This document shows, in pieces, positions 29,428 through 55,493 of a stretch of 64,000 nucleotides of DNA (positions are counted from its first letter, which is position 1; each line of letters starts with the position of its first letter). The stretch covers positions 1 to 64,000 of the forward strand of contig JADZBE010000007.1 of assembly GCA_020852275.1 (NCBI GenBank), read 5' to 3'. Below the pieces are notes generated by a model. It ran no database searches. It was not told where the DNA came from and worked only from the letters and a program-made list of their open reading frames with translations. The position numbers and the translations under genes were made by a program. Origin of the DNA: Phycisphaerales bacterium (GTDB lineage Bacteria; Planctomycetota; Phycisphaerae; UBA1845).

Positions 29428-29471
29428 GTTGGAAGTCAACGGCGGTCTGCGCGTGTGGATGGGACGGTGTA

Positions 29472-31371: not shown

Positions 31372-31382
31372 GCGGAGCGTGC

Positions 31383-32204: not shown

Positions 32205-32205
32205 G

Positions 32206-32389
32206 CGGCGAAACAGCGAAAGTCGAAACGGCGAGAGGCGAAACGGCGAAAGTCGAAACGGCGAAACGGCGAAAGTCGAAACGGCGAAAGTCGAAACGTC
32301 GAAAGGCGAAAGTCGAAACGGCGAAAGTCGAAACGGCGAAAGTCGAAACGTCGAACGTCGAACGTCGAAATGTCGAACGTCGAAACGTC
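32206..32389. repeat. Array of 7-8 bp CGAAAGT/CGAAACGG units
   Basis: About 25 units alternate CGAAAGT and CGAAACGG, giving 184 bp immediately after the gspH stop. The same units occur at 30669, 50080, in dnaE (12971) and in mtfA (25412, reverse). The array is strand-asymmetric (purine-rich on the coding strand). It sits in an operon junction where the neighbouring genes are otherwise tightly packed. Confidence 0.9.
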
Positions 32390-32491
32390 CAGGACACTGT
32401 TGCACAACTGAGCCGCGACCGTGAGGGAGCGCGTGTTTCCCGCCCAACCCGCGGGTTCTGAAACAGTGTGCACATGCAAAGAGGCAGGTCG

Positions 32492-33406: not shown

Positions 33407-33478
33407 GGAATTGCGAATTGCGAATGGCGAAGAGCGAATGCCGAATGCTGAATGCTGAATGCCGAATGCTGAAAGCTG
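33407..33478. repeat. GAATGCC/GAATGCT heptamer array at the gspI-gspJ junction
   Basis: About nine units of 7 bp (GAATGCCGAATGCTGAATGC and variants) span the 72 bp after the gspI stop. In the gspJ frame the units are phased so that no TGA occurs. The same units make up part of the dnaE insertion at 13018-13178. Confidence 0.85.
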
Positions 33479-33486
33479 GACACAAC

Positions 33487-36746: not shown

Positions 36747-38889
36747 CGCCCGCGCCAAAGCGAAGAAGCGCCGCATCGTCTGCCTGGAGTGGGACGGGCG
36801 CAGCCTGCGCGTCGTGGAGGCGACGGTCAGCAGGAAGGGCGCGTCGCTCGAGAAGGTCGTATCGCTGCTGATTCCGGCCGAGGTGGACCTCGCCGATGCG
36901 TCGGCGATGGGGCAGTGGATCCGCCGCGCGCTGGAGGAGCAGGGCATCTCGGCGAAGCTCGCGGTGGTGGACGTGCCGCGCAACCAGGCGATTCTCACGA
37001 CGCTGAATCTGCCGACCGTGGTGGAGCGCGAGTTGCCCGGCATGGTGGAGTTTCAGATCGCCAAGGAGCTGCCGTTCCCGGTGTCCGAGGCGGTGGTGGA
37101 CTTCGCGGTTCCGAACAATGTCACGGAGAAAACCGCGCCGGTGCTGGTGGCGGCGGTGCGCAATGAAGTCGTCGAGCACCTCAAGTCAGTGGTGACGCAC
37201 GCGGGGCTGAAGGTGGAGCGCGTGGGGCTTCGCCCGTTCGCCAGCAAGACGGCCGTGTGCCGGCTGCTGGGCGAGACGATGCCGGAGCGCGTGCTGTTCG
37301 TGGACGTGGGTCCGACGCTGACGGAGATCGACGTCATCACGGCGGACAGCGTGCCGTTCTCGCGCGCGGCGGACGTGCTGGTTCCCGGGGACGCGGGCGA
37401 GCCGCGGACGATCAAGCTGGGTCCGACGGGAGAGCCGCCGGAGACGACGGGCGACGCGCTGACGCTGCCGCTGTTCTCGGTCGAGGCCGTGGTGGAGTCG
37501 CTCGTGCTGGAGGTGACGCGCTCGGTGGAGGCGTACCGCGCCCGCGAGCGCGGTCAGCGCATCAGCCACGCGATCATTGCCGGCAGCATGGGCATCGAGG
37601 AGGCGCTGCAGGAAGCGCTGCAGCACCGCTTCGACTTTACCGTCGAGGTGTACAACCCCGCGTCCACGTTCGGCTGGTCCGCGGAAGAGGGAGCGTCGGC
37701 CTGCGGGTTCGCTTCCGTGTTCGGGCTGGTGCTTTCGCACGACGCGGATCCCAGCCGGCACTTCGATTTTCTGCACCCCAAGAAGACGGTGACGCAGACG
37801 GAAGTGCGGCTTCGCAAGGCGCCGCGGCTGATCGGCTGGGCGGCGGCGATCATCGTGACGCTGATGATGGGGTACTGGACGACGATCCGCGACGACCTGG
37901 AGACCAAGGCGAAACTGCAGAAGCAGATCGACGAAATGCTGGCGGACCGCGACGAGAAGGAGCAGTTCATCAAGCTCGTCAAACAGGTGAAGGACTTCGA
38001 CGATCAGCAGGTGCGCTGGCTGGACGAGTTCGGCGCGCTGGTGATGCAGTTTCCCGGCAACCAGGAATTCGTGCTCAACGAAGTTCGGATGGAAGGGGCG
38101 GATCGGAAGATTCTGGCGGATGCGCGTTTCCCGGAGAAAGGCGAGCTGGGCTGGGAGCTGCCGCACGAGCTGAAGCACAAGCTGGAGTCGTTGATTCGCC
38201 CCGGGGCGACAAGGCCGCACTACGAGGTGGACCTTCAGCTCCGCGGCGAGAATCCTGGCAACTCCAAGTATGGCTTGAAGCAGGCCATCAGCTTTTACCT
38301 GCGCGACGACGGGTACACGCCGGAGACTGCGAAAGCGGAGGGATCGAGCAAGCCCGGCGGCGACACATCTGCCCCGCCGTCGTCCGGCAAGCCCGCCCAT
38401 GATCGCCGCGCGAAACCGCCTGAGGGGGCGGCTCAGCCTCCTGCTGAGCCAAAGTCTGAGCCGCCGACCGGCGAACCGGGCCCGGGCGAACCACCGACTG
38501 ACAAGAAAACAGACCCCACTCCCAACGGCGCCGGCAAGGAGTCGGGTGGGGGGGCCGAGAAGCCCGTCCCTGCGCCGAAGACGCCGCCGCGGACCGTGCC
38601 GCTGACTCGAACTCCGGCCACGGGAGGCGCGTCGAAGTCGGGTCAGCCGGCGCAGGGGGTGAAGACGGATGCGCGCGGGCGACCGATTCCGGCCGCCGGC
38701 GTAGGCACGGCCGGCGCGTCAACGACAGGGGCCAGCAGTGCGGGCGCTGGCAAGCCTGAGGCGGATCCCGCCAAATCCGAGGCAGGCGCGGATTCGGCGC
38801 AGCCCGATGCGGATGGGGATCAGGCTGCGCCCGCGGCGAACCCATCCAGCGGTGAGAAGAAAGAGGATTCGGACAAGCCGAAGGCATAG
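36736..38889 (+). CDS. gspL: GspL-like protein (PilM-type domain fused to PilN-like membrane segment)
   Basis: The GTG at 36736 follows CAGGAG and overlaps the gspK end. Residues 1-350 are a PilM/GspL actin-like cytoplasmic domain (RIVCLEWDGRSLRVVEA, ELPGMVEFQIAKELPFPV, VLFVDVGPTLTEID). A transmembrane helix lies near 365-384 (LIGWAAAIIVTLMMGYW), then a PilN-like periplasmic helical part to about 535. The last 180 residues are Pro/Ser/Gly/Ala-rich and low in complexity. GspL links the ATPase GspE to the platform. At 717 residues it is long because of the tail. Whether PilM/PilN or GspL is the better name is a matter of convention. Confidence 0.85.
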   Translation: MYRDARAKAKKRRIVCLEWDGRSLRVVEATVSRKGASLEKVVSLLIPAEVDLADASAMGQWIRRALEEQGISAKLAVVDVPRNQAILTTLNLPTVVERELPGMVEFQIAKELPFPVSEAVVDFAVPNNVTEKTAPVLVAAVRNEVVEHLKSVVTHAGLKVERVGLRPFASKTAVCRLLGETMPERVLFVDVGPTLTEIDVITADSVPFSRAADVLVPGDAGEPRTIKLGPTGEPPETTGDALTLPLFSVEAVVESLVLEVTRSVEAYRARERGQRISHAIIAGSMGIEEALQEALQHRFDFTVEVYNPASTFGWSAEEGASACGFASVFGLVLSHDADPSRHFDFLHPKKTVTQTEVRLRKAPRLIGWAAAIIVTLMMGYWTTIRDDLETKAKLQKQIDEMLADRDEKEQFIKLVKQVKDFDDQQVRWLDEFGALVMQFPGNQEFVLNEVRMEGADRKILADARFPEKGELGWELPHELKHKLESLIRPGATRPHYEVDLQLRGENPGNSKYGLKQAISFYLRDDGYTPETAKAEGSSKPGGDTSAPPSSGKPAHDRRAKPPEGAAQPPAEPKSEPPTGEPGPGEPPTDKKTDPTPNGAGKESGGGAEKPVPAPKTPPRTVPLTRTPATGGASKSGQPAQGVKTDARGRPIPAAGVGTAGASTTGASSAGAGKPEADPAKSEAGADSAQPDADGDQAAPAANPSSGEKKEDSDKPKA

Positions 38890-38945: not shown

Positions 38946-40406
38946 ATGATGGACAAGCGAACGAGAATCCTGGCGATTGCTTTCTCCGCGCTGATCGGGC
39001 TGTGGTTCGGCTCGAAGACGGTCTACTCGTGGTGGATCAAGCCGCTGTTCACCATTCAAGAGGACATCGAGGCGCTGCGCACCAAGCGGGACGAGGCCAA
39101 CGAGTTCGACCTGGGTTACCGCAAAGCCCAGTGGGAGTACGAAAAGCTGGTGAGCCGGGTCGGCGCGATGCAGGTGGGCGCGCTGAAGGGCGACCTGCAC
39201 CGGCGGCTGGAGGAGCTGGCCCACAAGCACCATCTCAATGATCTGAAGGTCGCGCCGAAACTGCAGCAGAAGTTCGGGAAGACGGAGTGCACCCTGCTGG
39301 GCTTCACGATTTCCGGTCAGCAGAAGCTTGCGGACGTGCTCGGTTTCCTCAAGGACGTTTACGAGCTGCCGCACCTTATGCGGGTGCTCGATCCGCGCCT
39401 GCAGCCCGTCATCCCCCCGCGCGACAAGAAGCCTGAAGATCTGGTGAAGATATCCCTCGAGGTTCAGGCGCTGCTGCTGCCGCCGCGCCCCAGGCCCAAG
39501 CTCGATTACACGGTGAACAAGAAGGACCTCGTTGATCAGCCAAGCGCCTTCGCGCGGCACGGCGGGGTGGATGTAATGGCGCTGGCGGAGCGCAAGCCGT
39601 TCCTGGAGTACGAAGCGCCGAAGCCGGCCAGGCCGACCGAGCAGAAGCAACCGGAGACCAGCCCGGGGATCAAACCCCCGCCGGCGCTGACCTGCAAGCC
39701 TTGGAAAGGCAGTTGGAAGATCGTTGCGATTTCGATGATGCACGAGCCGCTTCTGCAGCGCGTGCTGGCGCAGGACGGCACGAAGACGTCGAGCCAGAAG
39801 TACATCGCGCCCGGCGAGGAGTTCGACGGGGGAATGCTGGACACCGTGTCGACGCTGGCGGCGCTGGTGCGCTATCACGACGGCAACTACGTCTATCCGC
39901 TCGGCGGCGAGTTCAAGGATCGCATCAAGGCGGAGCAGGCCGATCGCTACCCGATGCTCAAGGAGCGCGCCGCGACGCTGCCGCCTCTGTCCCAGGACGA
40001 GATTAAGGCGCTGCCGGGCAAGGCGGGGAAGACGGTCACGGCCTCGACGGCTTCGACCTCGTCCTCCAAATCAGGCTCGGACAAGAAAGGCGCTCCTTCG
40101 CTGCATCGCACGCCGTCGACCGGATCGAACGGTTCATCCAGCCGAACGACGACCACGCCGGGGCGGCTCAGCTCACCCGCCCGCACTGAGCCGGGCAGCG
40201 GGACCAAGGGGATTCCCGCGACGTCCAGACCCACGGGCAGCGCCGGTTCGCCGCCGCCTGGCCGCGGCGATCCGGACCCTGCGGCTGAGACGCCAGCCCC
40301 GCCGGATACAGGTGAGGAAGCGGAGGGGGCCGAATCCACCGGTGAGAACTTGCCGGCTGAGCCTGCTCCGGCGCCGTCGCCGCCGGGTCCGCCGGACAAC
40401 ATGTGA
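38946..40406 (+). CDS. gspM: PilO/GspM-like inner-membrane protein
   Basis: One N-terminal transmembrane helix (RILAIAFSALIGLWFG, near 7-22) is followed by a coiled-coil region and a small alpha/beta domain (about 85-185, CTLLGFTISGQQKLADVLGF), as in PilO/GspM. A second domain (about 235-340) is less clear. The last 120 residues are Ser/Thr/Pro/Gly-rich and probably disordered, like the tail of the preceding GspL. Position directly after gspL supports the assignment, which by sequence alone would be weak. Confidence 0.7.
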   Translation: MMDKRTRILAIAFSALIGLWFGSKTVYSWWIKPLFTIQEDIEALRTKRDEANEFDLGYRKAQWEYEKLVSRVGAMQVGALKGDLHRRLEELAHKHHLNDLKVAPKLQQKFGKTECTLLGFTISGQQKLADVLGFLKDVYELPHLMRVLDPRLQPVIPPRDKKPEDLVKISLEVQALLLPPRPRPKLDYTVNKKDLVDQPSAFARHGGVDVMALAERKPFLEYEAPKPARPTEQKQPETSPGIKPPPALTCKPWKGSWKIVAISMMHEPLLQRVLAQDGTKTSSQKYIAPGEEFDGGMLDTVSTLAALVRYHDGNYVYPLGGEFKDRIKAEQADRYPMLKERAATLPPLSQDEIKALPGKAGKTVTASTASTSSSKSGSDKKGAPSLHRTPSTGSNGSSSRTTTTPGRLSSPARTEPGSGTKGIPATSRPTGSAGSPPPGRGDPDPAAETPAPPDTGEEAEGAESTGENLPAEPAPAPSPPGPPDNM

Positions 40407-40490
40407 ATCCCCCGTTCGTTGAGCGGGTAGGAGGAAGGGAAAAGCGAACCGGGCGGGTTGAAGCCGCCCGGTCGGGAGTGTGAACCACAA

Positions 40491-40727: not shown

Positions 40728-40779
40728 TGAAGTTCGCATGATTCGTCGCCCCGGAAGGCTGCTCGGAGATCGCAAGAAC

Positions 40780-43700
40780 ATGATTCATCGCCATCACTCG
40801 ACGTTCATCAACCGACCCTGCCGCCTGGGGTTGGTTGCGCTGCTGGGAGCACTGTGGCTGGCCTCGCCAACTTTCGCCCAAGCGCCCTCCGGCTCGGCGC
40901 AGCCTCCGTCCGCGCCGCCGACGGAAAAGCCGGAGAAGGACAAGTCGGACAAGGACAAGTCCGGCGACAAGGGTGGGAAGAAAAAGAAAAAGAAGAAGAA
41001 GGCCGACAAGGCGGAGAAGGGCGACAAATCCTCCTCCGACAAGTCCGCCAAGCCGGCAACCGGCAACGACGCAGGCAAGACCGGGACTCCGCCCGCGAAG
41101 CCGAACGGCCAGGCAGCGACCGGTCAGCCGACGCCGCCGTCCAAGCCGTTCACGGGGCTTAAGCAGCCTGAGGAGAAGCCGACTTCGCCGCCGGCATCCG
41201 GGCCTCCGGCGCAGAAGGATCCCATGACGGACGTCGGCGACAAGCCGGTCGGTCCCGGCGCGGATAAACCGGTCGGTCCCGGCGCGGATAAACCCACCGT
41301 CCCCGGCTCGGACAAGCCGGCCGTTCCCGCGAATGAGAAGCCCGGCGGAGCGAGTGCCAAGCCGTTGACACCCCCGGGCCAGCAGTCCTCGGCGGGCGGC
41401 GCGGCTCGCCCCGGCGGACCGGTGACCACGTTAGAGGATCCGCCGCTGCCCAAGCCCGCCACGGGCAAGCCGGGCGGGGTGACCTCAACCGAGATGCCCG
41501 GCGCGCAGCCGCCGACTCACGGACTTCCGGGCGACAAGGACGAACCCAAGTCCGCTCCCGGCGCGAAACCGAACTCTTCCGATGCCTCCAAATCGACCGC
41601 TCCCGGCGTCAAGCCGTCGTCCGGTTCGACCCCGCCGACCAGCGGCTCGAAGAACGTTTCGCAAGCGGAACCCCCACAGGAATCCGCAGGCGACCAGAGC
41701 CGCGAGGATGCGGAGCAGAGATCTTACGATGTCATCAGCATCGCGGGCGACTATGCGACGCTGCTGGATGAGTTTGGCCGCCAGTCGGGCCTGACGCCCA
41801 CGGGCGACATCCCCGCGGGACAGGCGTTTTATCCCGCGCCGGCGGGCAAGAAGATGTCGTGGCAGGAAGCGTTCCGCCGCGTGAAGACGGCCATCTGGCA
41901 GGCGGACGTCCTCAACCGCCGCACGATCATCCGCGACGGCGATTACCTCGTGGTGCTCAGCGTCAACGACTACTGGCGACAGATGCCGCCGGAGTACATG
42001 TACACGAGCGTGGAGGAAATGCGCGCGGCCGATCCGCACGACGACGAGCTGGTGTACGTGCAATACACCATGCCCGTGGGCACGGCGGCGAACCTCGAGC
42101 TGCTGCGGAGTTTCGTCCCGGACTACGCGCGCATCGCCCCGGTGGCCGAGGGATCGAGCGTCGTCGGGATCTACGCCAAGGTCAGCGACATCAAGAAGTA
42201 CCTGACGATGTCGGAGCGGTTCCTGGTGGACGTGAAGGACCCGCGGCGGATGGAGCGCATTGCGTGCAAGCATATTTTGCCGTCGCAGGCGGTCGAGACG
42301 ATCGACCGCTTCATCGCCAAGCCCGGGAAGGGGCCTGCGCGCCCGTCCCCCGGCGCGAAGCCCGGCGCCGGCAGCCGACCCTCGCAAAACGAAGGCCTGA
42401 GTCTTTCCGTCGGCGAGGAGCAGGAGTCGATCTTCCTGCCCAACGACGACCGCAAGGAGATCCTCGCCTACGCGCTGCCGCTGCGGCTGGAGGAGTTCAA
42501 GCAGTTCCTCGCGGACCTCGACATTGAAACCGAGCAGACCAAGCGCACGCCGGTGGTCATTCCCGTCGAGCACGCCGACGCGGCGGAGTTGGCCCGCACG
42601 ATCGAGAACATCCTCGACGCCGAAGAGGGCAAGGGCATCAGCGGCGCCGGCGGAACCGAGGGTCCGGCCAAGCCGGGCGCGTCGAAGTCCACGGCCAACA
42701 GCCGCGGCGGCGGATCGTCGCACGGCGGCGTGGTGATCCTTCCGATGGCGGACTGGAACCAGCTCGTGGTGATCGGTCCGGACGACGGGATTTCGCGGGT
42801 GCGCGAGCTGGTGGAGATGTTCGACCAGCCCGCCGGCGAGGTGGCGCTGCACGTCGTGGAGATCCAGCACAAGACGCCGTCGTTCATCGTGAACCTGCTG
42901 ATGAACTACGATCAGGCGGACGGCTCGCCGGTGTCGAAGACGGCGGGCGGATCGCCGAAAGGTCCGAAGGCGTCGCCCTCCAGCGCAAAGTTCAACCCGG
43001 ACGACGAAAACGGCAAGCTTTACATTCTCTGCGCGCAGCGCGAGTGGGAAGTCTACAAGGAGCTGATCAACCAGCTCGACATCGACGACGGCGCGGGAGC
43101 GTTCACCCGCATCGAGTTGCAGCACATCGACCCGGCCGACGCCATCGAGCGCGTCAACCAGTTTCTCGGCAGCGGCGGCGGCGCGGGTCCGCAACCGCGC
43201 GGCGGCGGAGGGGCCGCTTCGTCCGGGCGGAAGATGCTGGCGGGGGATCGCGCGATCCTGGTGTACGGCGCGGGCGCTTCAGAGCTGGAGCAGATCCGCC
43301 AGGTTGTCGGCGTGCTTGACCAGCCGTCCGAGCAGATCGAGAAGACCTTCGTGCTCGAATACGCCGAGCCGCAGACGATCATCGGCATTGTCGAGGCGAT
43401 GGTGCTGCAGTCCGGCGGCGGCGGGGCGGTGCTGGGCGGCGGCGAAGGTCCGCCGTCGAAGGGGCGGCCCAGCCCGCGCGGCTCGACCTCGTCGCACGCG
43501 GCGGCCACGCTGTATCCGCTGGACAACCGACTGCTGGTGAAGGCGTCGGCGACGACGATGTCGAAGATCGAGGAAGTGGTGAAGGAATTCGACGTGCCGC
43601 CGGTGGAGGGCACGGAGACGCGCGTGTATGAGTTCGCCGAGGGCACGGATGTGCAGGCGATGGCGGACACGCTGGGGCAGGTGATCCCCGCCATGACCGG

Positions 43701-46700
43701 CGAGGGCGGCGGCGCTGCGCCTGCGCAAGGCAGGGGGCCGGGGCGCGGACCCGGCGCGGGTCGAAGCGGCGGGCCGCAGTTTATCCCGCAGGCGTCGGCT
43801 GGAAAGCTGATCGTCATCGCGGAGAGGGCGGTGTTCCCCAAGATCGACGAGATGATCGAGCACCTTCGCGTGGAAGGCGCGTCGGTGCGGGCGATGCGGC
43901 ACGTGCCGCTGAAGAAGGCGCAGCCGAAGGAAATCGCCGCGACGATCACGGCCATGATGCGTTCCGATCCGGGCGGCGGCGTGACGATGGGCGGCGGGGG
44001 GAAGAAGGGCGGGGGCGGCGCCGGATCGTTCTACATCGATGAAGCGCCGGGCGGTCACGCGGTCGTCATGCACGGCACGGTGGCGGAGCTGGACCAAGCC
44101 CAGAAGTGGATCGAGCAGCTCGACACCGCGGCGCTGACCGGTCAGCAGGTCAAGCTGTACCACGTCAACACTGCCGATCCCAAGAAGCTTGTCGATCTCA
44201 TCATCAACGTGATTGATTCCGGCGCCGGCGCCGGCTCGGGCAATGGCAAGGATAAGGCGCCCAAGGCGCCCGCCGCGCCCAAGGGCAAGGAGAGCAGCGG
44301 CGGCAGCATCGATGATCTGTTCGGCCCGTCCGAGGAGCCGGAGTGGGAAAGCAGCCGCACCTACGTCAGCAAAGACCTCTATCTTCAGGCGGACTACTGG
44401 GAGAAGACGATCCTCGTGGTCACGTCGCCGGCAAAGCTGGACGAGATCGGCGCGCTGATCGAGAAGCTCGATCCGTCGGAAGGGGACAGCCCGATCAACG
44501 TCAAGCCCGAGCCGTACACGCTGATCTACGAGCTGACGTATGCGAAGGCGTTCGACGCTTCGCTGGACATCGACACGTATCTTGAAATCTGGGGCGACAA
44601 CAAGCCGTCCGTCTCCTCCGACGACGAGCAGAACACGCTCATCGTCCGACATCCCCGCCCGGAAGTGCTCGATGAGGTCGAGAAGGTGATCCGCACGATC
44701 ATCGACCGCCCCAAGAAGATAGGCGACCTTGTCACGGAAAGGCGGATCATCCCCGTACCCATCAGTTTCCCGGTGATAGATGCGGCGCAAGGTCTGAAAG
44801 TTGATACGGACAAGAAGCTCATCGTCGAGATCAAAGGTTCGGAGGACGAGGACAAGGAATTCGGCATCAGTCGGGTCGTACCGCGTGCGCCGGCAAAGTC
44901 GGGAGATGCGGACAAGGCAGACGATGCGGCCAAGGAGAACTCGTCCAGCGCGGATGCCGCAAGAAAGTCCGGCGGTTCGGGATGCGTGATGCCGTCGTCG
45001 CTCTCGTTCGGCGCGCTGGCGGCCACGATGCAGGTTCCCACTACAACGGACGACGAGCCGCGCGCCGGAAAAAAGCGAGGCAAGGCACAGGAAACGCCGG
45101 ATGAGAAGTCCGGCAAGAAGGACGGGAAGAAAGGCAGAGATCGGAAGGGGGGGGACAACGACTCCGCCCCTGAGGCGCTGATGCCTGATGAAGCGGATAC
45201 CCCACGGGGCGACTTGGCGACGGACTCCTCGGCAAAGGCTGATTCGCGCGGGACGGGTGGCGCGGCGGCTGCTCAGGAACCTGCCGGTGAAGAACTGCCT
45301 GGCATGACGACGGGCGGCGTAGAGGAAGATCCGTTTTTGCAGTCCTTGCGCCAGGACCCAGGTCGCATCCGGACGGTGACGCGGGACGAGAAGGCCATCG
45401 CCGAGGGCGCGCCGGGCACGATGCAGGAGATCCATGTCTGGGTCGATCCGGTGACGAATCAAATCGTCGTCGAAGGCACGACGGAGGACGTCAAGAAGAT
45501 TGAGGAGATGGTGGCGGAACTGGTGAAGGGCCAGCCGACGACCAAGCCGGACATCCGCGTGTACCGCGTCAAGTACATCGACCCGGTGCTGGCGAAGGAC
45601 ATCATCGAGGAGATGTTCGGCGCCGGCTCGCGCAACATGGCCAACATGATGCGCCAGCAGCAGCAGCAGGCGGCCGCGGCGGCAGCGCGTGCGGCGGCGG
45701 CCCGCGGCGGCAACGCCCCGAACGTTCCCGGCGCGCCGAACGCGCGCGGCGGCGGGCGTGACGAAGAGCGCGGCGGTCAGCCGCAGGTCATTCCCGGTCT
45801 GCCGGGCCAGCAGGGTCGTCCCGGGCAGCAGCAGATGGGCGGCGAGGACGGTCAGCAGAACCAGAACCAGCAGTTCCTTCAGCAGATGACGCAGCAGCAG
45901 TCCGCGGCGGAGATCAAGGTGTACGCCAACCCGCGCGACCGCACGCTCGTGTTCCGCGCGCCAACCGGGCTGTACCCGGCAATCCTCGAACTTCTGGCCA
46001 CCGTGGATCAGCCGCAGGAAGTCACCAGCAACTTCCGCATCTTCACGCTCAAGAAACTTCAGGCCGAGGATGCGGAAAAGAAGCTGCGCTCGTTTCTGAA
46101 CCTCGACGAGAAGCCCAAGGGAGCGGAGGAGCGTCTGCGCGACATCGAGGCGTTGGGCGGTCAGATGCCCGAGCCGGTGACGGACGCGCAGGGCAACGAA
46201 ATCACGCCGAACCAGATCCGCATCACCAGCAACCCGATGGCGAACACGATCATCGCCATGGCGCCGCCCGAGGCGCTGGACTACATCGGCAAGCTCATCG
46301 AGAGCCTCGAAAGCTTCGAGATGCCGGAGCGTCTGGTGGAGTGGATTCCACTGGCCAACTCGCTGGCGACCGAAGTGGTGGACATGCTCGACAAGCACTT
46401 CGCGGAAGACAAGAGCGCCGCGCCCGGCGCGCCCGGCGGCAAGAAGGGCGGCGCGATGCCCGCGACCGGCGGCAAGACCAACGTGGCCGCGCCGCCGCCG
46501 TCGTTCCTGCCCTACGCGCGGCTCAACGTCGTCGTGGTGCGGGCGACGGACGAGCAGATGAAGGAAGTCAAGGAGGTCATCGCCAGGCTGGACGTTCCGC
46601 CGGAAGGCTCGCAGTACGAGTCGGTGAAGATCACCTGCGCCGACGCCGGGCAGCTTGCCCAGCAGCTTGCGCAGATGTTCGGCAGCGCGGCCGAAGGTGG

Positions 46701-49700
46701 CAAGGGCAAAGGCGCGGGCACCACGCAGGGGGCGAAGTTCTTCGCCTCCGGCGAAGGAAACATGCTGTTCTACAGCGTCCCCAACTCGATCAAGCCCGAG
46801 GTGCTCGCCACCATTGAGAAGATCGATCAGCAGCAGTGCATGCAGCAGGAAGTGCGCATCATTGAGCTGAAGTTCGGCACGCCGTCGCAGGTGGCCGAGG
46901 CGGTCAACATGGCCTACGGCGGCGGCGGCGGGAAGACGGCCAAGAAGGGCGGCGCCGGCGGCGGCCGGATCGTCGTGGCGGGGCACGATCCCACGCGGCG
47001 GCTGTTCGTGGCCGCGCCGAATGAAGAGGCGTTCCAGGAAGTGGTTTTGCTGGTGCAGAAGCTCGACGTGCCGACGGACCTGAAGTTCGGCGCGTATCCG
47101 CTGAAGTTTCTCAACGCGCGCTCGGCGCTGGGGCTGATGCAGGGCTTGATTCAGCAGTACGGCATCCGCCCGGGGCGCGACGCGGAGAAGTTCGCGGTGG
47201 ACGCGGACGAGGCCACGAACTCGCTGATCGTGCTCGGCGGGCCGCAGACCCATGCGTTTGTCGAGGAAGCGATCAAGACGTTCGACACCGAGGAGCGCCG
47301 CGTCGGCAACGTCGTTACGGTGATCTATCAGCTCAAGCAGGCGAACGCGGTGGAGCTGGCCAAGAACATCAACACCACGCACGGCGGCAAGAGCAAGGAC
47401 GGCGCCGAGGTGAAGGCCGAGGCGAACGCGGCGCTGAACGCCCTTATCGTCGTGGCGTCGGAGAAGATGCAGAAGCAGATTGACGACACGATCATCAAGC
47501 CGCTGGACGGGATGATTCCGCCGGGGCTGCTGTCCGAGGTCATCGAACTGAAGAACGTCCACCCGGACCTTATGGCGGAAAAAATCCGCACGCTGGTCAA
47601 CGAGCAGCTCGATGGGAAGAAGATCGTCGGGCAGAAGGGCAACCTTATCGGCACGACGGTGGTCATCAGCTCCGACCCGGACACGCGGCAACTCCTCGTG
47701 CTGGCGGACAAGGAGAACATGGAGTTCATCAAGTCACGCGTGGCGATGCTCGATACGCCGGAGACTTCGCTGAAGGAAGGCCTGATCACCAAGAAATACC
47801 CCGTGCAGTGGGGCGATCCGAACGTGCTCAAGGGCGTGATCGACGAATGGACGGCCACGCGCACGGGCAAGGGCAAGACCGGCAAGCAGCAGGTGCAGAC
47901 GTCGGCGCGCGACCTGGTGCTGGCGTACGTGGACGGGGCGACGTCGTCGCTGATCGTCACCGCCAGCTCGGAGAACCAGGGGCGGATCGTCGCGCTGCTC
48001 AAAGAGATCGACGTGGACACGGGGCTTGGCTCGCAGCGCGAGGTGGTGTTCCTCAAGAACGCCAACGCGGCGGAGCTTCAGCAGGCGATCGCCCCCTCGC
48101 TCGCCAAGAGCGGCAGCGGCAACAAGCGCCAGCCGGGGCAGCAGCTTACGGTCACGGCCGTGCCGCAGCTCAACGCGCTGCTCATACAGGGCGGACCGAA
48201 GGACATCGACGAAACCAAGCAGCTCATCGCCAAGCTGGACCTGCCGCCGAACGAGGACGCGGGCGTCATCATCCGCGTCTATCCGCTGCAGTTCCTCGAC
48301 CCGCAGTTCGTCGTGAACATGGTGAACCAGGCGTTCACCAAGACGAACTCGAAGCGCCCGGAGGACACGATCAAGGCCGCGTGGACGCCGCCGAGCAACC
48401 TGATCATCGGCGCGTCGAACGAGAACCACCTCAAGATCGCGGCGCTGCTGAAGGAGCTGGACGTGGAGTCGTCGGCGCAGCGGCAGATTCACACGATCAA
48501 GCTGACGTACGCCGGAGCGACGGACCTGGCGCAGAACCTTTCGCAGCTCATTCAAAACACGCAGCAGAAGAAAAAGACCGACGTGCAGCCGATGTACATC
48601 ACCGGCGAATCCGGCACCAACAGCCTCATCGTCTACGCCAATGAGGTGGAGATGAAGTGGGTGGAGGAGCTGCTGACCAAGCTCGACGTGGCGGAAGTCA
48701 CCAGCGGGCGGACGATCAAGTCGTTCCAGCTTGCGTATGCCGATCCCAACTCCGTGTCGCAGGCGATCACGCAGGTGTTCGGGCAGAGCGCGCCGGGCGG
48801 CGGCAAGAAGAACCCGCAGGACCAGGTTGTCGCGTTTCCGGAATACGGCTCGCGCTCGGTCATCGTGGCCACTTCGCCGCGGATGCTCGAGGACGTGAAG
48901 CGCCTGGTGGCGGAGCTGGACACGTCGGAAGGGGCGGACCGGCCCATCCGCGTGGTGTCGATCAAGAACGTCGATCCGGAGGGCGTGCAGCAGGTGTTGC
49001 AGGACCTCTTCTCCGGCGGGGCGAATCCGTTCGGTGGCGGCCGCGGGATGCGCGGCGGCGGCTTCTTCTTCGGCGGCTCGCAGGCGACGGGCGGCATGGT
49101 CATCGCGCTGGTGCCGGGGACGAACAACATCGTCATCCGCGCCAACGAGGAAGAGTTCACGAAGATCATGGACGTCATCAACCAGATCGACGTGGACCTC
49201 GCCAAGAAGCAGGACATCCGCATTTTCCTGCTGAAGAACATCAATGCCCAGGAAGCGCAGGGGGCGCTGGAAAGCTACTTGGAGCGTCCCGGCGCCGGCT
49301 CGTCGATGAGCAGCATGTTCCGCGGGCGCGGCGGAAGCTCGCGCGGGACGCTGACCGGCGACGCGCGCGTCACCGTGCTGGCCTCGTCCAACGGGCTGGT
49401 GGTCACCGCGGACCGCGAGGCGATGGACGGCATCGCGGCGGTCATTCAGCAGCTCGACACGTCGGCCGAGGGACCGAACAAGCCGCGCATCATCAAGGTT
49501 GAGCACGCCAGCGTGGCCGATATCGAGCCGATGGTGACCGACCTGTTCCTGTCGGATGCGTCGCGCAGCGGCTCGGGGCGCGGTGGAGTTTCCACCCCCA
49601 AGCCGATCGTCGTGGCCGATCCGCAGCTTAACGCGTTGATCGTTCGCGCGGCGGACACCGACTTCGAGGCGATCAAGGAAATTGTTGCGTATCTCGACAA

Positions 49701-50079
49701 GGCGGACCGCGTGGGCGCGACGTTCAAGATCATCCAGGTCCCGCCGGGCTTCGGCGTGGCGGACATGGCGTCGCAGGTCTCGGACGCGATCAACAAGGGT
49801 CAGCAGGGTCAAAGCTCCTCCCGCGGCAGCTCGAAGGCCAGCACGGTGACGATCACTCCGAACGCGCGCACGCATTCGCTGATCGTGACGGGCTCTCCGA
49901 CGCTGTTCCCGCAGGTGGAGCAGATCGTGGAGCAGCTCGCCAGCATGGGCCCGCCGGGCGGGATCGCAACGAAGATCATCCCGGTGAAGACCATGAGCCT
50001 TGAAGAGGTTCAGAAGATCATCGAGCTGCTCAAGCAGCAGGAAGAGGGTCAGAGCAGCGGCTCGACGCGGCGGCGGTAG
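40780..50079 (+). CDS. Giant secretin N-domain repeat protein without pore domain
   Basis: I start at the ATG at 40780 (CTCGGAG upstream), which gives the signal peptide LGLVALLGALWLASPTFAQ; an ATG at 40738 is possible. About 3099 residues: a Lys/Pro/Gly-rich low-complexity region (35-310), an STN/N0-like start (YDVISIAGDYATLLDEFG, near 315), ten secretin N-type domains to about 1310, a charged linker (about 1310-1535), then 17-18 more N-type domains to the end. Each domain shows a strand like VIPVEHADAAELARTIENIL, a variable Gly-rich loop, then a strand of the form NALIVRA and a helix ending LD. No secretin pore segment (GDxPxxGxLF) is present. It lies directly upstream of the true secretin gene. 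A periplasmic scaffold or ring stack is my inference. Confidence 0.85.
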   Translation: MIHRHHSTFINRPCRLGLVALLGALWLASPTFAQAPSGSAQPPSAPPTEKPEKDKSDKDKSGDKGGKKKKKKKKADKAEKGDKSSSDKSAKPATGNDAGKTGTPPAKPNGQAATGQPTPPSKPFTGLKQPEEKPTSPPASGPPAQKDPMTDVGDKPVGPGADKPVGPGADKPTVPGSDKPAVPANEKPGGASAKPLTPPGQQSSAGGAARPGGPVTTLEDPPLPKPATGKPGGVTSTEMPGAQPPTHGLPGDKDEPKSAPGAKPNSSDASKSTAPGVKPSSGSTPPTSGSKNVSQAEPPQESAGDQSREDAEQRSYDVISIAGDYATLLDEFGRQSGLTPTGDIPAGQAFYPAPAGKKMSWQEAFRRVKTAIWQADVLNRRTIIRDGDYLVVLSVNDYWRQMPPEYMYTSVEEMRAADPHDDELVYVQYTMPVGTAANLELLRSFVPDYARIAPVAEGSSVVGIYAKVSDIKKYLTMSERFLVDVKDPRRMERIACKHILPSQAVETIDRFIAKPGKGPARPSPGAKPGAGSRPSQNEGLSLSVGEEQESIFLPNDDRKEILAYALPLRLEEFKQFLADLDIETEQTKRTPVVIPVEHADAAELARTIENILDAEEGKGISGAGGTEGPAKPGASKSTANSRGGGSSHGGVVILPMADWNQLVVIGPDDGISRVRELVEMFDQPAGEVALHVVEIQHKTPSFIVNLLMNYDQADGSPVSKTAGGSPKGPKASPSSAKFNPDDENGKLYILCAQREWEVYKELINQLDIDDGAGAFTRIELQHIDPADAIERVNQFLGSGGGAGPQPRGGGGAASSGRKMLAGDRAILVYGAGASELEQIRQVVGVLDQPSEQIEKTFVLEYAEPQTIIGIVEAMVLQSGGGGAVLGGGEGPPSKGRPSPRGSTSSHAAATLYPLDNRLLVKASATTMSKIEEVVKEFDVPPVEGTETRVYEFAEGTDVQAMADTLGQVIPAMTGEGGGAAPAQGRGPGRGPGAGRSGGPQFIPQASAGKLIVIAERAVFPKIDEMIEHLRVEGASVRAMRHVPLKKAQPKEIAATITAMMRSDPGGGVTMGGGGKKGGGGAGSFYIDEAPGGHAVVMHGTVAELDQAQKWIEQLDTAALTGQQVKLYHVNTADPKKLVDLIINVIDSGAGAGSGNGKDKAPKAPAAPKGKESSGGSIDDLFGPSEEPEWESSRTYVSKDLYLQADYWEKTILVVTSPAKLDEIGALIEKLDPSEGDSPINVKPEPYTLIYELTYAKAFDASLDIDTYLEIWGDNKPSVSSDDEQNTLIVRHPRPEVLDEVEKVIRTIIDRPKKIGDLVTERRIIPVPISFPVIDAAQGLKVDTDKKLIVEIKGSEDEDKEFGISRVVPRAPAKSGDADKADDAAKENSSSADAARKSGGSGCVMPSSLSFGALAATMQVPTTTDDEPRAGKKRGKAQETPDEKSGKKDGKKGRDRKGGDNDSAPEALMPDEADTPRGDLATDSSAKADSRGTGGAAAAQEPAGEELPGMTTGGVEEDPFLQSLRQDPGRIRTVTRDEKAIAEGAPGTMQEIHVWVDPVTNQIVVEGTTEDVKKIEEMVAELVKGQPTTKPDIRVYRVKYIDPVLAKDIIEEMFGAGSRNMANMMRQQQQQAAAAAARAAAARGGNAPNVPGAPNARGGGRDEERGGQPQVIPGLPGQQGRPGQQQMGGEDGQQNQNQQFLQQMTQQQSAAEIKVYANPRDRTLVFRAPTGLYPAILELLATVDQPQEVTSNFRIFTLKKLQAEDAEKKLRSFLNLDEKPKGAEERLRDIEALGGQMPEPVTDAQGNEITPNQIRITSNPMANTIIAMAPPEALDYIGKLIESLESFEMPERLVEWIPLANSLATEVVDMLDKHFAEDKSAAPGAPGGKKGGAMPATGGKTNVAAPPPSFLPYARLNVVVVRATDEQMKEVKEVIARLDVPPEGSQYESVKITCADAGQLAQQLAQMFGSAAEGGKGKGAGTTQGAKFFASGEGNMLFYSVPNSIKPEVLATIEKIDQQQCMQQEVRIIELKFGTPSQVAEAVNMAYGGGGGKTAKKGGAGGGRIVVAGHDPTRRLFVAAPNEEAFQEVVLLVQKLDVPTDLKFGAYPLKFLNARSALGLMQGLIQQYGIRPGRDAEKFAVDADEATNSLIVLGGPQTHAFVEEAIKTFDTEERRVGNVVTVIYQLKQANAVELAKNINTTHGGKSKDGAEVKAEANAALNALIVVASEKMQKQIDDTIIKPLDGMIPPGLLSEVIELKNVHPDLMAEKIRTLVNEQLDGKKIVGQKGNLIGTTVVISSDPDTRQLLVLADKENMEFIKSRVAMLDTPETSLKEGLITKKYPVQWGDPNVLKGVIDEWTATRTGKGKTGKQQVQTSARDLVLAYVDGATSSLIVTASSENQGRIVALLKEIDVDTGLGSQREVVFLKNANAAELQQAIAPSLAKSGSGNKRQPGQQLTVTAVPQLNALLIQGGPKDIDETKQLIAKLDLPPNEDAGVIIRVYPLQFLDPQFVVNMVNQAFTKTNSKRPEDTIKAAWTPPSNLIIGASNENHLKIAALLKELDVESSAQRQIHTIKLTYAGATDLAQNLSQLIQNTQQKKKTDVQPMYITGESGTNSLIVYANEVEMKWVEELLTKLDVAEVTSGRTIKSFQLAYADPNSVSQAITQVFGQSAPGGGKKNPQDQVVAFPEYGSRSVIVATSPRMLEDVKRLVAELDTSEGADRPIRVVSIKNVDPEGVQQVLQDLFSGGANPFGGGRGMRGGGFFFGGSQATGGMVIALVPGTNNIVIRANEEEFTKIMDVINQIDVDLAKKQDIRIFLLKNINAQEAQGALESYLERPGAGSSMSSMFRGRGGSSRGTLTGDARVTVLASSNGLVVTADREAMDGIAAVIQQLDTSAEGPNKPRIIKVEHASVADIEPMVTDLFLSDASRSGSGRGGVSTPKPIVVADPQLNALIVRAADTDFEAIKEIVAYLDKADRVGATFKIIQVPPGFGVADMASQVSDAINKGQQGQSSSRGSSKASTVTITPNARTHSLIVTGSPTLFPQVEQIVEQLASMGPPGGIATKIIPVKTMSLEEVQKIIELLKQQEEGQSSGSTRRR
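44711..45390. other. Linker dividing the giant protein into a 10-domain and an about 18-domain half
   Basis: Within the giant gene, about 225 residues do not follow the N-domain pattern. They start with a short beta-rich piece (RRIIPVPISFPVIDAAQGLK), pass through Lys/Asp/Glu/Ser-rich low-complexity sequence, and end before EIHVWVDPVTNQIVVEG, where N-type domains resume. There is no stop codon. It could mark an ancient gene fusion or a flexible hinge. Confidence 0.6.
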
Positions 50080-50170: not shown

Positions 50171-50534
50171 GGAGCGGCGGTTTTCGAAAGACGCAGAGCG
50201 CAACTGAGCCGCGACCGTAAGGGAGCGAATGGGGGGTGAATGGACGCGGCGCCGGCGGCGAAAAACCTCGGCGTTTACCGGGGCGGGGTTGCAAACCGGG
50301 CGACTTGGTTTGTAACGAGCCAACTCCGCTGTGACTTGGCGCATCGGCGCGGGTACAAGAGGGGACGTGCGAGTGGGCGATCGGTTCGGAGAGGCGCGGG
50401 GTTAGCCGCGGGATTTTCTACGCCACGCGGGTCGGCGGGGCTGAGGCTGGGGCGGAGCGGTCACGGATCGACGAGTGGTACCCATGATGAAGACTGGCGC
50501 GAACATCAGGCATACGCGGGGGAGGGTTGGGAGC
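50171..50534. other. Leader region of gspD
   Basis: About 360 bp without a recognisable gene. It carries one CTTACGG-type palindrome and then GGGGAGGGTTGGGAG before the ATG at 50535. Open frames here are short and of poor composition. Confidence 0.45.
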
Positions 50535-53500
50535 ATGGTGAAGGTATTCTCGCTCGCCGGGCTCATGGCGGGTCTGCTTGCCGGGGCCGGTTCGCGCGCG
50601 GCGTGGGCGCTTCCGCAGGACAGCGGCGCCGGCAATCCCCAACTTGCTTCCTCACAGATTCAGCCTCCTCCAGGCGATCAGCCGCCCGCCGCAGGGAAGA
50701 AGGGGCAGGGAAAGAAAGGCAAGGGCAAGAAGGGCAAGGGCAAGGGGAAGGACGCTGCCGGCAAGGCGGATGGAGCCCAGCCGAAGGGGGAGAAGGGCGC
50801 CGGCAAGAAGCCCGTGCCCAAGATCCAGCAACCCCAGGAGACGCCCACCGCCCAGACGCCGCCTGCCCAATCCACAACGCCCGACGCTCCCATGCAGGAG
50901 GGCGAGCAGAAGCCCGGCGTTGAAGGCGAGAAGAAGGCGCCCGGTGAGAAGAAATCCTCCGACGACGGCGCGGGGAAGGGCGGCGCGACGGGCGCGGACA
51001 AGAAGCTTGGGCAGCAGGTCAACAAGATCGAGGCCAAGGATCTCGCCCGCGAACTGCTGGGCGACGAAGGCGACGGCGGGCGCCAAGGAGATGGGAAGGC
51101 CCAGCCCGGCGGTGCGCCGCAGGGCGAACCTCGGCGCTCGGATGTGCCGTTTAAGAACATGTCGGGCGAGGACATCCTCGGCGTCATCAACACAATGGAC
51201 CTCGGCCTGACGGGCGCGGACCTGCAGGTCGAAATCGTCGGCAAGAACATCGTCATCAAAGGCGCGCCCGAGGACGTGGAGAAGCTCGAGGCCCTCGTGC
51301 TCCTGCTGGACCGGCTGCAGAAGGACATGCTCAAGTCCGTCGAAACCGTCGTGCTCAAGCAGAAGGGCGCGGAGGAGATCTCCCGGGCGGTGACCGACGC
51401 CCTGCGGGACGTGTTCCCGATGCCCACCGGTCGCGCGGAGCAGCCGTTTAAAATCTCCCCGATCGGCGGCAACGTCGTGCTCATCGTGGCCATGCCGGAG
51501 CACATGGACTTCATCAAGGACGTGGTGACGCGGCTGGATGAACTTCCGCCGCCGGAGCTGGGCGAGTGGCTGACGTTCGAGATCAAGAACCGCAAGGCGA
51601 GCGACGTCCTGAAGGAAGTTCAGGACATGCTCAGCAAGATACGCACGCAGCTCGGCGTGCGGACGGGCGAGCTGGCGATCAAAGCGATCGACGCGACGAA
51701 CCAGTTGCAGGTCTTCGCGCCGGAGAAGGAGCGGGATCGGATTCAGAAGATCATCGACGCCGTGGACGTGGCGCCCAAGGAGGATTGGGGCGAGGTGAAG
51801 ATGGTCATGTTCCCTCTGCTGCACTCGAAAGCGGAGGATTTCGTCAATACGCTCAACGATCTGCTGACGTCGCAGGAGGGCCGCGACGCCGCAACGGAGA
51901 CGATCCTGCGTCTGAGCCTGATGGTCGTGGATCCCAAGACCGGCGCGGTCAACCCGATCAAGCCGATCGACTTGTCGCGGACCAACAAGCTCATCGCCGA
52001 CCCCGGCACCAACAGTATCCTCGTCGCCACGGTGGAGAAGAACATCCCCGGTTTTGCGGAGTTGATCCGCCTGCTGGACGGCATCCCCCTGGCGGAGGAC
52101 GTCCAGGTGGAACTGGTCCCCCTGCGCTTCGCGGAAGCCAGCGACCTTGAAGAGAAACTCAGCACGCTGTTCGAGAGCGGCCCGGACCTGCTGCCCGACC
52201 CCGGCGACATCAACCGCGACGGCGTGCCCAAGCAGGAGGCGGGCAAGGCGCTGGCGTACAAGTTCAGCGTCGTGGCCGACTCGCGGTCCAATACCATCGT
52301 GCTGGCGGGTCGCGCGGAGCAGGTGTCGCTGGCGAAGCGCGTGGTCGAGGGGCTGGACCAGCCGTTCCGCTACAAGCATCCGATCCGCATGATCCGGCTG
52401 CAGAACGGCGACGCGATCCGCATCGGCAAGCTGCTTACCGACATGCTCGAGCAGCGGCAGGACGCGTACAACGCGGTGGCCAACGACATGGCGGCCGAGG
52501 CGGAGCGCGTGTTCCTGACCATCGACGTGAACAGCAACGCGCTGATCGTGTCGGCCAGCGAGCCGAACATCGCCGAGATCGAGTCGCTGGTGAAGACGCT
52601 GGACATCGCGCCCACGCGGAACCTGACGCAGCTTGGGATCATCAAGTGTCATCACCTCTCGGCGACGACGCTGGCGGAGAAGATCAAGGAGCTGTGGGAG
52701 CGCAAACTGAGCATCCTCGATGAGGCGGAGCAGTTCCGCGATGAGCCGGTGATCGTGGCCGACGAGCGCAGCAACTCGCTCCTGGTGGCGGCCGGCCCGG
52801 ACGACTTCGCGCAGATTCAGCAGCTCGTGGAGAACCTCGAAAAAGAAAAGCCGGTGGACAACATCCGCATCTTCGGGCTGAAGTTCGCGGACGCGATGCA
52901 GATGAAGACGAAGTTCGAGGAGCTGTTCCAGGGCTTGTCGCCGCTGATCGGCGAGGAGAACGAGCCGACGTTCATCTCGGATGAGCGCAGCAACTCGCTG
53001 ATCGTCGCGGCGTCGCAGGACGCGATGGAGCGCGTGGAGACGCTGGTGACCAAGCTGGACGTGGAGTCCGGCCCGACAACGGCGATCCTCCAGGCGTACA
53101 CGCTTCAGTTCGCCAACGCGCTCAACATCGCGCAGAAGATGACGCGGCTGTTCGAGGATCGCCAGCAGGGCGGGGACAGCGGCGAGCGCACGCCGGTGGT
53201 GATCGTGCCGTTCGAGGGGACCAACAGCCTGGTGATCAGCGCCTCGCGCGACGACCACGCCGTGGTGACGGACCTGATGCGGCTCTTGGATCAGAAGTCG
53301 GCGCTCGCCAAGCAGGTCGAGATTTTCCCGCTGCAGTACGCCAAGGCAGAGGACGCCTCGCAATCGCTCGAGGAGCTTTTTAACCAGGCATCCTCGGACG
53401 GAGACTCCGGTCGTCCGGACGCCATCGCCGTCGTGCCGGATGCGCGCAGCAACTCGCTGGTGGTGTGGGCGTCGGCGTCGCAGCTCGAGGACGTGGCCGC

Positions 53501-55493
53501 GATGATCAAGAAGCTGGACACGACGAACGTCGGTCCGCGGCAGTCGGTGCGCGTGGTCCAGCTCAAGCAGGCGCTGGCGGAGGATTTTGCCACGGTTCTG
53601 CAGGACGCGATCTTCGGCGAAAACGAGGACGAAAACACTTCGGTGATGATCTCGTTTCAGGAGACGCGCGACGACGGGACGAAGGTCGAGCACAAGCTGC
53701 TGCGCCAGGACGTGCGCTTCACGCCGGATGCGCGGACGAACTCCATCTTCGTGTACGCGCCGGAAAAAAGCATCGACGCGCTGGAGTCCATGATCCGCAA
53801 CATCGACCAGATCCGCCCGACGGTCAATGAGATCCGCATGTTCGAGCTGTGGAACAGCAATGCCCAGTCCGTGGTCGAAATGCTGCGCGATCTCTACGAG
53901 CAGGACACGGGCGGGCAGCAGGGCGAGGCCGACATCCGCACGCAGTTCCAGGTGATGGGCTTCCCGATCGAGGGCATCCCGGCGCTGGCGGGGCAGTCGC
54001 TGCGGTTCGTGGCGGACGAGCGGACGAACACCGTCGTGGCCGCGGGCGCGCCGATCGACCTGCAGATGATCGAGGGATTGGTGCGCACGCTGGACAGCGT
54101 GGAGCGCAACGAGCGAGTGGACCAGGTGTATCGCCCCAACACACTCAAGCCGGACGAGTTGTCCACGGCGCTGACGGACTTCCTGCAGCAGGAAGAGGAA
54201 GCTTATCCGCAGGACGAGGGCACGACGTCTTCCTACCAGTTGGCGGAAAAAAAGGTTTCGATCGTCAGCATCGGCGGCGACACGGAGGAGGATCGCGGGT
54301 CCGGGCTGATGATCGGTTCAAGCCCGCGCAAGGCGCCGCAGATTCTGGATCTCATTCAGCAGCTCGATCGCCCCGAGCCGCAGGTGCGCATTTCCGTGCT
54401 CGTCGCCGAGGTCATTCTCGACGATCGCCTCGAATTGGGCATCGAGTTCGCGGCGCAGGACCTGGAGTTCTCCGAGACGGCCGTGCTGGGCCCCAACGGC
54501 ACGGTGATCGGCGACAACGACGCGTTCGACACGGTGTCGGGGACGGACATCGGCGCGGTCGGTCCCGGCGGGTTCTCGTTCACTGTGACGGGGGAGGACT
54601 TCAACTTCCTGCTCCGCGCGCTGCAGACGGAGAGCCGGCTCGAAGTGCTGTCGCGGCCGACGATCGTGGTTGAGAACAACCGCGTGGGCAACATCGACAT
54701 CGGCGACCGGATTCCGATTCCGAAAAGCTCGAATTTGTCGGATACGAGCGCGCGGACGCAGACTTCATTTGATTACGAGGACGTGGGCATCAAGCTGAAC
54801 GTGACCCCGCACATCACGCCGGACAGCTTCGTGCGCATGGACGTCAGCGCGGAGATATCGCAGCTTTCCAACCAGACCATCACCCTGACGGAGGGGTTGA
54901 CGGCGCCGGTCATCAATCAGCGCAAGCTCGAATCAAGCGTCACGGTGAAGGACGGCGAGACCGTCGTTCTCGGCGGCCTGATCACTTCGAGCCAGGAGCA
55001 CGGCGAGAACAAGGTGCCGGTCTTCGGCGATCTTCCGTGGGTGGGCGTGCTGTTCCGCTCGACGCGCGAGGTGTCGCGGCGGACGGAACTGCTGACGATT
55101 CTGACCGTGGAAGTCCTGCGGACCCCGGAGGATTACCACGAGACATCCCTGATCGAGCGCGACATGGGCGAGTCTTCGGATTGGATCAAGAGCCACCGGC
55201 TGATGGAAGGGCTGCGAATCGTGCCGGACCCGTCGATGATGGGTCCGCAGGAAGAAATGGGCCCGAATGGTCAGCCGGCGCCCAACGGAGCGGCGCCCGC
55301 CAAGCCCACGCCGCAAGGGCGCGAGTTGTACGGGCCCAAGCCGCGCCGCTACGGACCGGACCTCAGCAAGCCCGTGGCGAAGTACGGTCCCAAGCTGCCG
55401 GCGCAGAAGCCGCTTCCACCACCGCCGCCGCCACCGGTGAGCGAGGAAAAGCCGACGGCGGAACTTGCCGGCGGACCGAATGAAGAGCGCTGA
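50535..55493 (+). CDS. gspD: Type II secretion outer-membrane secretin GspD with about 13 N-domains
   Basis: Secretins form the outer-membrane pore of type II secretion. The ATG at 50535 has GGAGGG upstream and gives the signal peptide VFSLAGLMAGLLAGAGSRA (an ATG at 50475 is also in frame). Residues about 40-205 are Lys/Pro/Gly-rich. About thirteen N-type domains run from 205 to about 1280, whereas classical GspD has N0-N3. The pore domain covers about 1282-1530: QVRISVLVAEVILDDRLELG, LEVLSRPTIVVENN, GDRIPIP, VTVKDGETVVLGGLI and VPVFGDLPWVGVLFRS. A Pro-rich tail follows. The total is 1652 residues, more than twice normal. It is the only complete secretin in the window. Confidence 0.95.
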   Translation: MVKVFSLAGLMAGLLAGAGSRAAWALPQDSGAGNPQLASSQIQPPPGDQPPAAGKKGQGKKGKGKKGKGKGKDAAGKADGAQPKGEKGAGKKPVPKIQQPQETPTAQTPPAQSTTPDAPMQEGEQKPGVEGEKKAPGEKKSSDDGAGKGGATGADKKLGQQVNKIEAKDLARELLGDEGDGGRQGDGKAQPGGAPQGEPRRSDVPFKNMSGEDILGVINTMDLGLTGADLQVEIVGKNIVIKGAPEDVEKLEALVLLLDRLQKDMLKSVETVVLKQKGAEEISRAVTDALRDVFPMPTGRAEQPFKISPIGGNVVLIVAMPEHMDFIKDVVTRLDELPPPELGEWLTFEIKNRKASDVLKEVQDMLSKIRTQLGVRTGELAIKAIDATNQLQVFAPEKERDRIQKIIDAVDVAPKEDWGEVKMVMFPLLHSKAEDFVNTLNDLLTSQEGRDAATETILRLSLMVVDPKTGAVNPIKPIDLSRTNKLIADPGTNSILVATVEKNIPGFAELIRLLDGIPLAEDVQVELVPLRFAEASDLEEKLSTLFESGPDLLPDPGDINRDGVPKQEAGKALAYKFSVVADSRSNTIVLAGRAEQVSLAKRVVEGLDQPFRYKHPIRMIRLQNGDAIRIGKLLTDMLEQRQDAYNAVANDMAAEAERVFLTIDVNSNALIVSASEPNIAEIESLVKTLDIAPTRNLTQLGIIKCHHLSATTLAEKIKELWERKLSILDEAEQFRDEPVIVADERSNSLLVAAGPDDFAQIQQLVENLEKEKPVDNIRIFGLKFADAMQMKTKFEELFQGLSPLIGEENEPTFISDERSNSLIVAASQDAMERVETLVTKLDVESGPTTAILQAYTLQFANALNIAQKMTRLFEDRQQGGDSGERTPVVIVPFEGTNSLVISASRDDHAVVTDLMRLLDQKSALAKQVEIFPLQYAKAEDASQSLEELFNQASSDGDSGRPDAIAVVPDARSNSLVVWASASQLEDVAAMIKKLDTTNVGPRQSVRVVQLKQALAEDFATVLQDAIFGENEDENTSVMISFQETRDDGTKVEHKLLRQDVRFTPDARTNSIFVYAPEKSIDALESMIRNIDQIRPTVNEIRMFELWNSNAQSVVEMLRDLYEQDTGGQQGEADIRTQFQVMGFPIEGIPALAGQSLRFVADERTNTVVAAGAPIDLQMIEGLVRTLDSVERNERVDQVYRPNTLKPDELSTALTDFLQQEEEAYPQDEGTTSSYQLAEKKVSIVSIGGDTEEDRGSGLMIGSSPRKAPQILDLIQQLDRPEPQVRISVLVAEVILDDRLELGIEFAAQDLEFSETAVLGPNGTVIGDNDAFDTVSGTDIGAVGPGGFSFTVTGEDFNFLLRALQTESRLEVLSRPTIVVENNRVGNIDIGDRIPIPKSSNLSDTSARTQTSFDYEDVGIKLNVTPHITPDSFVRMDVSAEISQLSNQTITLTEGLTAPVINQRKLESSVTVKDGETVVLGGLITSSQEHGENKVPVFGDLPWVGVLFRSTREVSRRTELLTILTVEVLRTPEDYHETSLIERDMGESSDWIKSHRLMEGLRIVPDPSMMGPQEEMGPNGQPAPNGAAPAKPTPQGRELYGPKPRRYGPDLSKPVAKYGPKLPAQKPLPPPPPPPVSEEKPTAELAGGPNEER

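Follow-up and report, generated by a model that had tools for sequence, protein, structure and literature searches.

Secretins studied so far contain a handful of N-domains and build a channel of tens of nanometres. In the T2SS, the secretin GspD/PulD/XcpQ (TIGR02517; PDB 5wq7, 6hcg, 5wln) consists of an N0 domain, N-type domains and a C-terminal pore, and is encoded in gsp gene surroundings. More N-domains than usual (N0-N5) are found in the PilQ secretin of Thermus thermophilus, the channel of which is ~35 nm long, a length tied by the authors to a wide periplasm (PMC4463427). The locus analysed here lies in the contig JADZBE010000007.1 of a Phycisphaerales bacterium (assembly GCA_020852275.1), of which positions 1 to 64,000 (hereafter the window, 64 kb) were studied. 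It resembles GspD in all the features just named, but has ~40 N-domains after N0 instead of three, is divided over two genes, a giant pore-less one and a pore-bearing one (Table 1), and has the boundary between these genes inside one domain. It also differs from Thermus PilQ, which is one protein of 757 residues (PMC5745081) with six N-domains and belongs to a type IV pilus and not to a T2SS. The single-ORF giant secretins of other Phycisphaerae (loci L021-L026 and L131-L150) are homologous over the full length and have the same GspL/GspM-like neighbours; unlike the locus of the window, these are one polypeptide with the pore, and some contain a signal-peptide-like element at the junction. Within the open-licence literature, we found no description of giant or planctomycete secretins, of a T2SS secretin of such size, of a fission into two proteins or of a half-domain boundary. 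The component parts are already known; the size, the division over two secreted proteins and the position of the gene boundary inside a domain are apparently undescribed.

The giant is encoded by a real ORF. The open frame spans 40462-50079 on the forward strand with its first GTG at 40480, and the most plausible start is the ATG at 40780, which begins a signal peptide (MIHRHHSTFINRPCRLGLVALLGALWLASPTFAQA) that is followed by a Lys-, Pro- and Thr-rich low-complexity leader extending to ~41720. Just 5' of this start, at 40495-40725, GGTTGGAAACCGGTGCCAC-like palindromes are repeated in tandem (period ~26/78); the array lies in frame within the longer ORF and is probably non-coding. Two long antisense open frames opposite the giant and the secretin (43279-47691, 1,470 aa, and 50652-53693, 1,013 aa, both on the minus strand) probably result from a codon bias towards high G+C. 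The Pfam profile Secretin_N matches the giant with 567.9 bits (E 7e-175), and 22 stretches each pass alone, which bears out the proposal of a first-pass annotation of this DNA that its segments are secretin N-domains. That annotation had counted 27-28 N-type domains; our own domain HMM (72 positions), trained on the two window proteins and then on relatives, agrees well with this count, finding 26-27, the last of which is a half domain, and another 12-13 in the next gene. As a control, 200 shuffled giants produced one chance match in total and the reversed giant none. One of these N-domains (residues ~1318-1581) is broken up by ~165 aa of low-complexity linker, in which a degenerate CVMP and an Ala-rich stretch occur. 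The predicted structure also matches secretins: AlphaFold2 (AF2) models the last 532 residues (48481-50076) as repeated beta-alpha-beta-beta-alpha units with a mean pLDDT of 75, all 35 Foldseek matches in the PDB at E <= 0.001 are secretins, and single predicted units superpose on N-domains of XcpQ/GspD at 0.9-1.6 Angstrom over ~60 residues (Z ~10).

Ahead of the first N-type repeat, at residues ~315-395, the giant contains an N0-type domain, which was absent from the first-pass listing and is common to its relatives. A profile built from 31 N-termini, of split and fused proteins together, aligns along its entire length with structures of GspD N0-N1-N2 (best PDB match 5wq7_A, E 1.3e-35), beginning at the N-terminal residues of the mature chain. 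The Pfam gspD_N0 profile matches 13 of these 31 relatives, with the window member below the threshold. Pfam scans detect no N0 in the pore-bearing neighbour and no Secretin pore (PF00263) in the giant, which, as previously noticed, lacks a C-terminal secretin segment; the next gene encodes the pore. This neighbour, also correctly taken for the real secretin, matches the Secretin pore profile with 160 bits and GspD (TIGR02517) with 509 bits, and its true start is possibly the ATG at 50484, 50487 or 50535. Compared with GspD, the giant alone thus has the N-terminal N0 and the tandem PF03958 domains and lacks the C-terminal PF00263, while the giant and the next gene together provide N0, N-domains and pore in order, collinear with the single-ORF relatives and set among other T2SS genes.

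Table 1. Features of the split secretin locus and of the T2SS genes preceding it (window coordinates).
Feature	Position	Strand	Content	Evidence
GspF	29325..30668	+		T2SSF 2.5e-53
GspG and further pseudopilin-like genes	30871..34470	+		T2SSG 1.9e-17, N_methyl
GspK minor pseudopilin	34470..36746	+		T2SSK; NCBIfam GspK 9.7e-26
PilM/GspL-like protein	36736..38889	+		PilM_2 8.7e-24
GspM/PilO-like inner-membrane protein	38946..40406	+	extra C-terminal domain	T2SSM/PilO matches in a few relatives; PilO PDB E 0.0045
Giant pore-less protein	40780..50079	+	3,099 aa; N0 and ~27 secretin N-type domains	Pfam, own HMM, shuffles
Putative signal peptide of giant	40780..40884	+		inspection of translation
N0-type domain	41722..41961	+	first secretin module	profile of giant N-termini vs GspD structures
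Module A	42259..44700	+	N-type domains 1-9	HMM matches, residues 494-1307
A/B junction	44731..45522	+	N-domain 10 split by low-complexity linker (~44887-45384)	second half matches HMM 26-70
Module B	45553..49938	+	N-type domains 11-27	HMM matches, residues 1592-3053; AF2 of 48481-50076
C-terminal half domain	49948..50040	+	beta1-alpha1, then basic Ser/Gly/Arg tail	HMM positions 2-33 of 72
Pore-bearing secretin	50475..55493	+	1,672 aa from first GTG; own signal peptide	Secretin_N x12 and Secretin 160 bits
Complementary half domain	51207..51314	+	beta2-beta3-alpha2; opens folded part of secretin	HMM 19-71 in window
Module C	51339..54368	+	12 N-type domains of secretin	HMM matches, residues 289-1298
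Secretin pore domain	54375..55139	+		PF00263; alignment of 19 relatives

The T2SS genes upstream of the giant recur in its relatives: a homologue of the GspM/PilO-like protein is found beside the giant or the fused secretin in ~25 loci, and PilM/GspL-like and PilO/GspM-like genes accompany split and fused forms alike. The extra C-terminal domain of the GspM/PilO-like protein is GspC-HR/PilP-like (HR being a fold that binds the secretin's N0) by eye only, with weak matches to E. coli GspC (hhalign probability 0.4, E 0.15) and to GspC in the PDB (E 1.1). In several loci (L033, L035-L037, L039, L044, L045, L047 and L048), this protein contains PKD/Ig-like insertions, none of which occurs in that of the window. 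A PF00437 search of the 64-kb window did not reveal GspE, copies of which are located on other contigs.

The boundary between the two genes is conserved. In line with the synteny expected by the first-pass annotation, the giant and secretin frames are adjacent and on the same strand in 51 of the 51 split loci examined (median gap 164 nt), and in 48 of the 49 loci with measurable ends the boundary falls inside one N-domain, the exception being L083, in which the giant's end is missing. The giant ends with the first half of this domain (HMM ~2-35 of 72), often with GPxGG before it and a basic Ser/Gly/Arg tail after it; in most split loci, the second half (HMM ~38-71) opens the folded part of the secretin. 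That these half domains are retained over many lineages is best explained by the completion of one domain between two chains. The AF2 model of a fused junction (L097) contains a strand-helix, a long disordered linker and a strand-strand-helix, the order of strands and helices expected for one split domain, with low confidence at the junction; VIA-align of this model gave no row matching both halves as one domain, and the sole row across the junction (8co1_A1, 1..507) has an rmsd of 39. Three further observations concern these loci. In the window, the gap between the genes contains a 15-bp direct repeat (GAAAGCTGAAACGTC, 5.3 copies, 50087-50165). In L047 (genome G004), a single in-frame stop (6746-6748) cuts the giant after the first half of an N-domain, which could mean that a third gene truly exists, that the gene has decayed or that the sequence contains an error. 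Finally, L098 (JANQQE010000004.1), titled Alphaproteobacteria bacterium, bears a Phycisphaerae split secretin locus, and its NCBI label is probably wrong.

Relatives in which both parts form a single protein are widespread. The N-terminal region of the giant, used as a query against 40 related genomes, matched 34 of them. In the window's own family, giants are ~2,400-3,270 aa long where complete (in one genome the giant is cut in two), and a pore ORF of ~1,520-1,760 aa is located downstream wherever the contig extends that far. Within the same order, the sister families f4 and f8 have instead one ORF of 4,144-4,890 aa that has the N-terminal region of the giant at its start and the pore at its end, with N0 and 35-44 N-domains preceding the pore. 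In other families of Phycisphaerae, single-ORF secretins are 3,294-5,073 aa long and contain 31-51 N-domains. Pore-domain surveys extended to the class and the phylum detected many more, of 3,100-5,073 aa; the 16 complete loci from outside the order contain 31-51 N-domains, mostly without a long linker. Single-protein channels of 4,000-5,000 residues are, to our knowledge, far longer than any studied channel of this kind. Outside the class, secretins of ~1,200-1,500 aa (e.g., in f33, f61 and f64) and of ~2,200-2,300 aa (f73) occur, and the expansion of N-domains may be wider in Planctomycetota. Complete two-gene pairs total 34-42 N-domains, against 35-44 in the fused members of the order; loci in which the giant is cut further give lower pair totals. 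The domains of the window (27+13) are moreover collinear with those of fused relatives (rho 0.82 with L021 and 0.92 with L023). A maximum-likelihood tree was computed from 83 pore regions, with the last N-domains included. On it, the split and fused states require a single change, compared to a mean of 28 after the labels were shuffled; every one of the 16 outgroup rows is fused, and the branch parting the two states has a moderate support of 72. The simplest history is thus the fission of an ancestral single gene, and, judging from these sequences, the giant gene would have been split once, in an ancestor of this Phycisphaerae lineage.

The linkers of the fused proteins bear on this history. 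Fused proteins of the order have two long linkers, one between modules A and B and one between modules B and C; in the window, the A/B linker is kept inside the giant and B/C is the gene boundary, and in L032 and L114 genes are cut at both places. In all 13 f8 proteins compared, the B/C linker contains a hydrophobic stretch followed by AxA|Q, AxG|Q or a close variant (e.g., TLPVFMMNVALQSAVAQ), the rest of it being poorly conserved. Over 50 fused linkers, this signal-peptide-like motif, which was picked after viewing the sequences, is present 27 times, compared with the 4.6 expected after shuffling, and the element of the window's own A/B linker is devoid of it. An internal translation start was considered as the source of the f8 element and discarded, since only about half of the inspected sequences have a Met upstream. 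A conserved GDAxWT motif ahead of the element suggests that the region is translated. The f4 fused secretins (L024, L105, L118 and L120) carry in their B/C linkers another conserved hydrophobic motif, ~AW[VI]EPxIAxTPLSPVL, mostly without a signal-peptidase-like end. The f8 element may be a working signal-peptidase site or a relict of separate genes. The first possibility would make cleavage at the fused junction possible. We hold at somewhat less than even odds the tentative proposal that two secreted proteins, each with one half of the same N-domain, rebuild one giant secretin by intermolecular domain completion and that the single-ORF sisters may be polyproteins cut by signal peptidase at the same place, yielding the same two-part channel. 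The second would imply that the fission is ancestral in the order and that refusion took place in f8 and f4; such an element at the homologous place in every f8 linker compared would then be accounted for. This history is conceivable yet rather unlikely, because it takes three changes if refusion occurred twice, against one if the fused state is ancestral (the branch order being moderately supported), and because the outgroup families have fused secretins, most of them without long linkers.

The reading that best accounts for these data, to which we assign a probability of about 0.8, is that the giant is the N-terminal two-thirds of a gene-fissioned giant GspD, that the next gene encodes its pore-bearing end, and that both chains form one long periplasmic channel. 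According to this model, the giant would supply N0 and ~27 N-domains, and the next gene half a domain, 12 more N-domains and the outer-membrane pore. Each protein would be exported by its own signal peptide, and the beta-alpha half of the giant and the beta-beta-alpha half of the secretin would then complete one N-domain, locking the chains, which are probably joined by this shared domain. As in the known secretins GspD and PilQ, the N-domains would be arranged in rings, one per layer; N0 would point to the inner-membrane platform, and the pore would be embedded in the outer membrane, where GspD forms a 12-15-fold ring. Gene order and fusion speak for shared descent and probable contact of the two proteins, not for geometry. 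The N-domains could instead constitute a flexible non-ring scaffold, i.e., bundled strands or a periplasmic fibre hung from the secretin, with only the last few forming rings. The long low-complexity linkers and Gly-rich loops would suit such a scaffold, as would the interdomain geometry of the whole AF2 model, which does not superpose on known N-domain stacks (model-normalised Foldseek TM-scores ~0.1-0.2); nevertheless, the fold of the domains is that of ring-forming secretin N-domains and N0 is located at the far end, as in GspD, and we consider this arrangement improbable. Considerably less probable is the interpretation of the first-pass annotation, in which the giant forms a periplasmic ring stack, tether or sheath of its own, working beside the secretin: although the giant has its own gene and signal peptide and no pore, the location of N0, which the giant has and the secretin lacks, the fused sisters, the collinear domains and the boundary within one N-domain led us to reject it as an independent component. 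An assembly or frameshift artefact cutting a single gene, to be considered given that the sequences are metagenome-assembled genomes and that L047 is cut by one in-frame stop, is hardly credible when the same boundary, with a conserved giant end and a signal peptide at the secretin start, is found in 51 loci of many genera and assemblies.

The ring formed by N0-N1-N2 of XcpQ is 80 Angstrom high (PMC5646246), i.e., ~27 Angstrom per domain, so that 40 domains would span ~100 nm if the rings stack. A channel of ~100 nm could suit a greatly enlarged planctomycete periplasm, a compartment that is variable and at times greatly enlarged (PMC5394234; shown in Planctopirus, another class). However, the same genome contains other PF00263 secretin matches, and its other Secretin_N frames are of only 379-771 aa; the width of the periplasm alone therefore fails to explain the length, and is doubtful as its sole reason.

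In all, if the proposed channel is true, a T2SS channel built of 35-50 layers of N-domains would rank with the longest known periplasmic tubes, and such a length raises the question of how the pseudopilus could work over that distance. The giant secretin would provide a molecular handle on how Phycisphaerae handle their envelope, and the gene break kept within one repeat domain over many genera would represent a natural split-domain assembly of a membrane machine.
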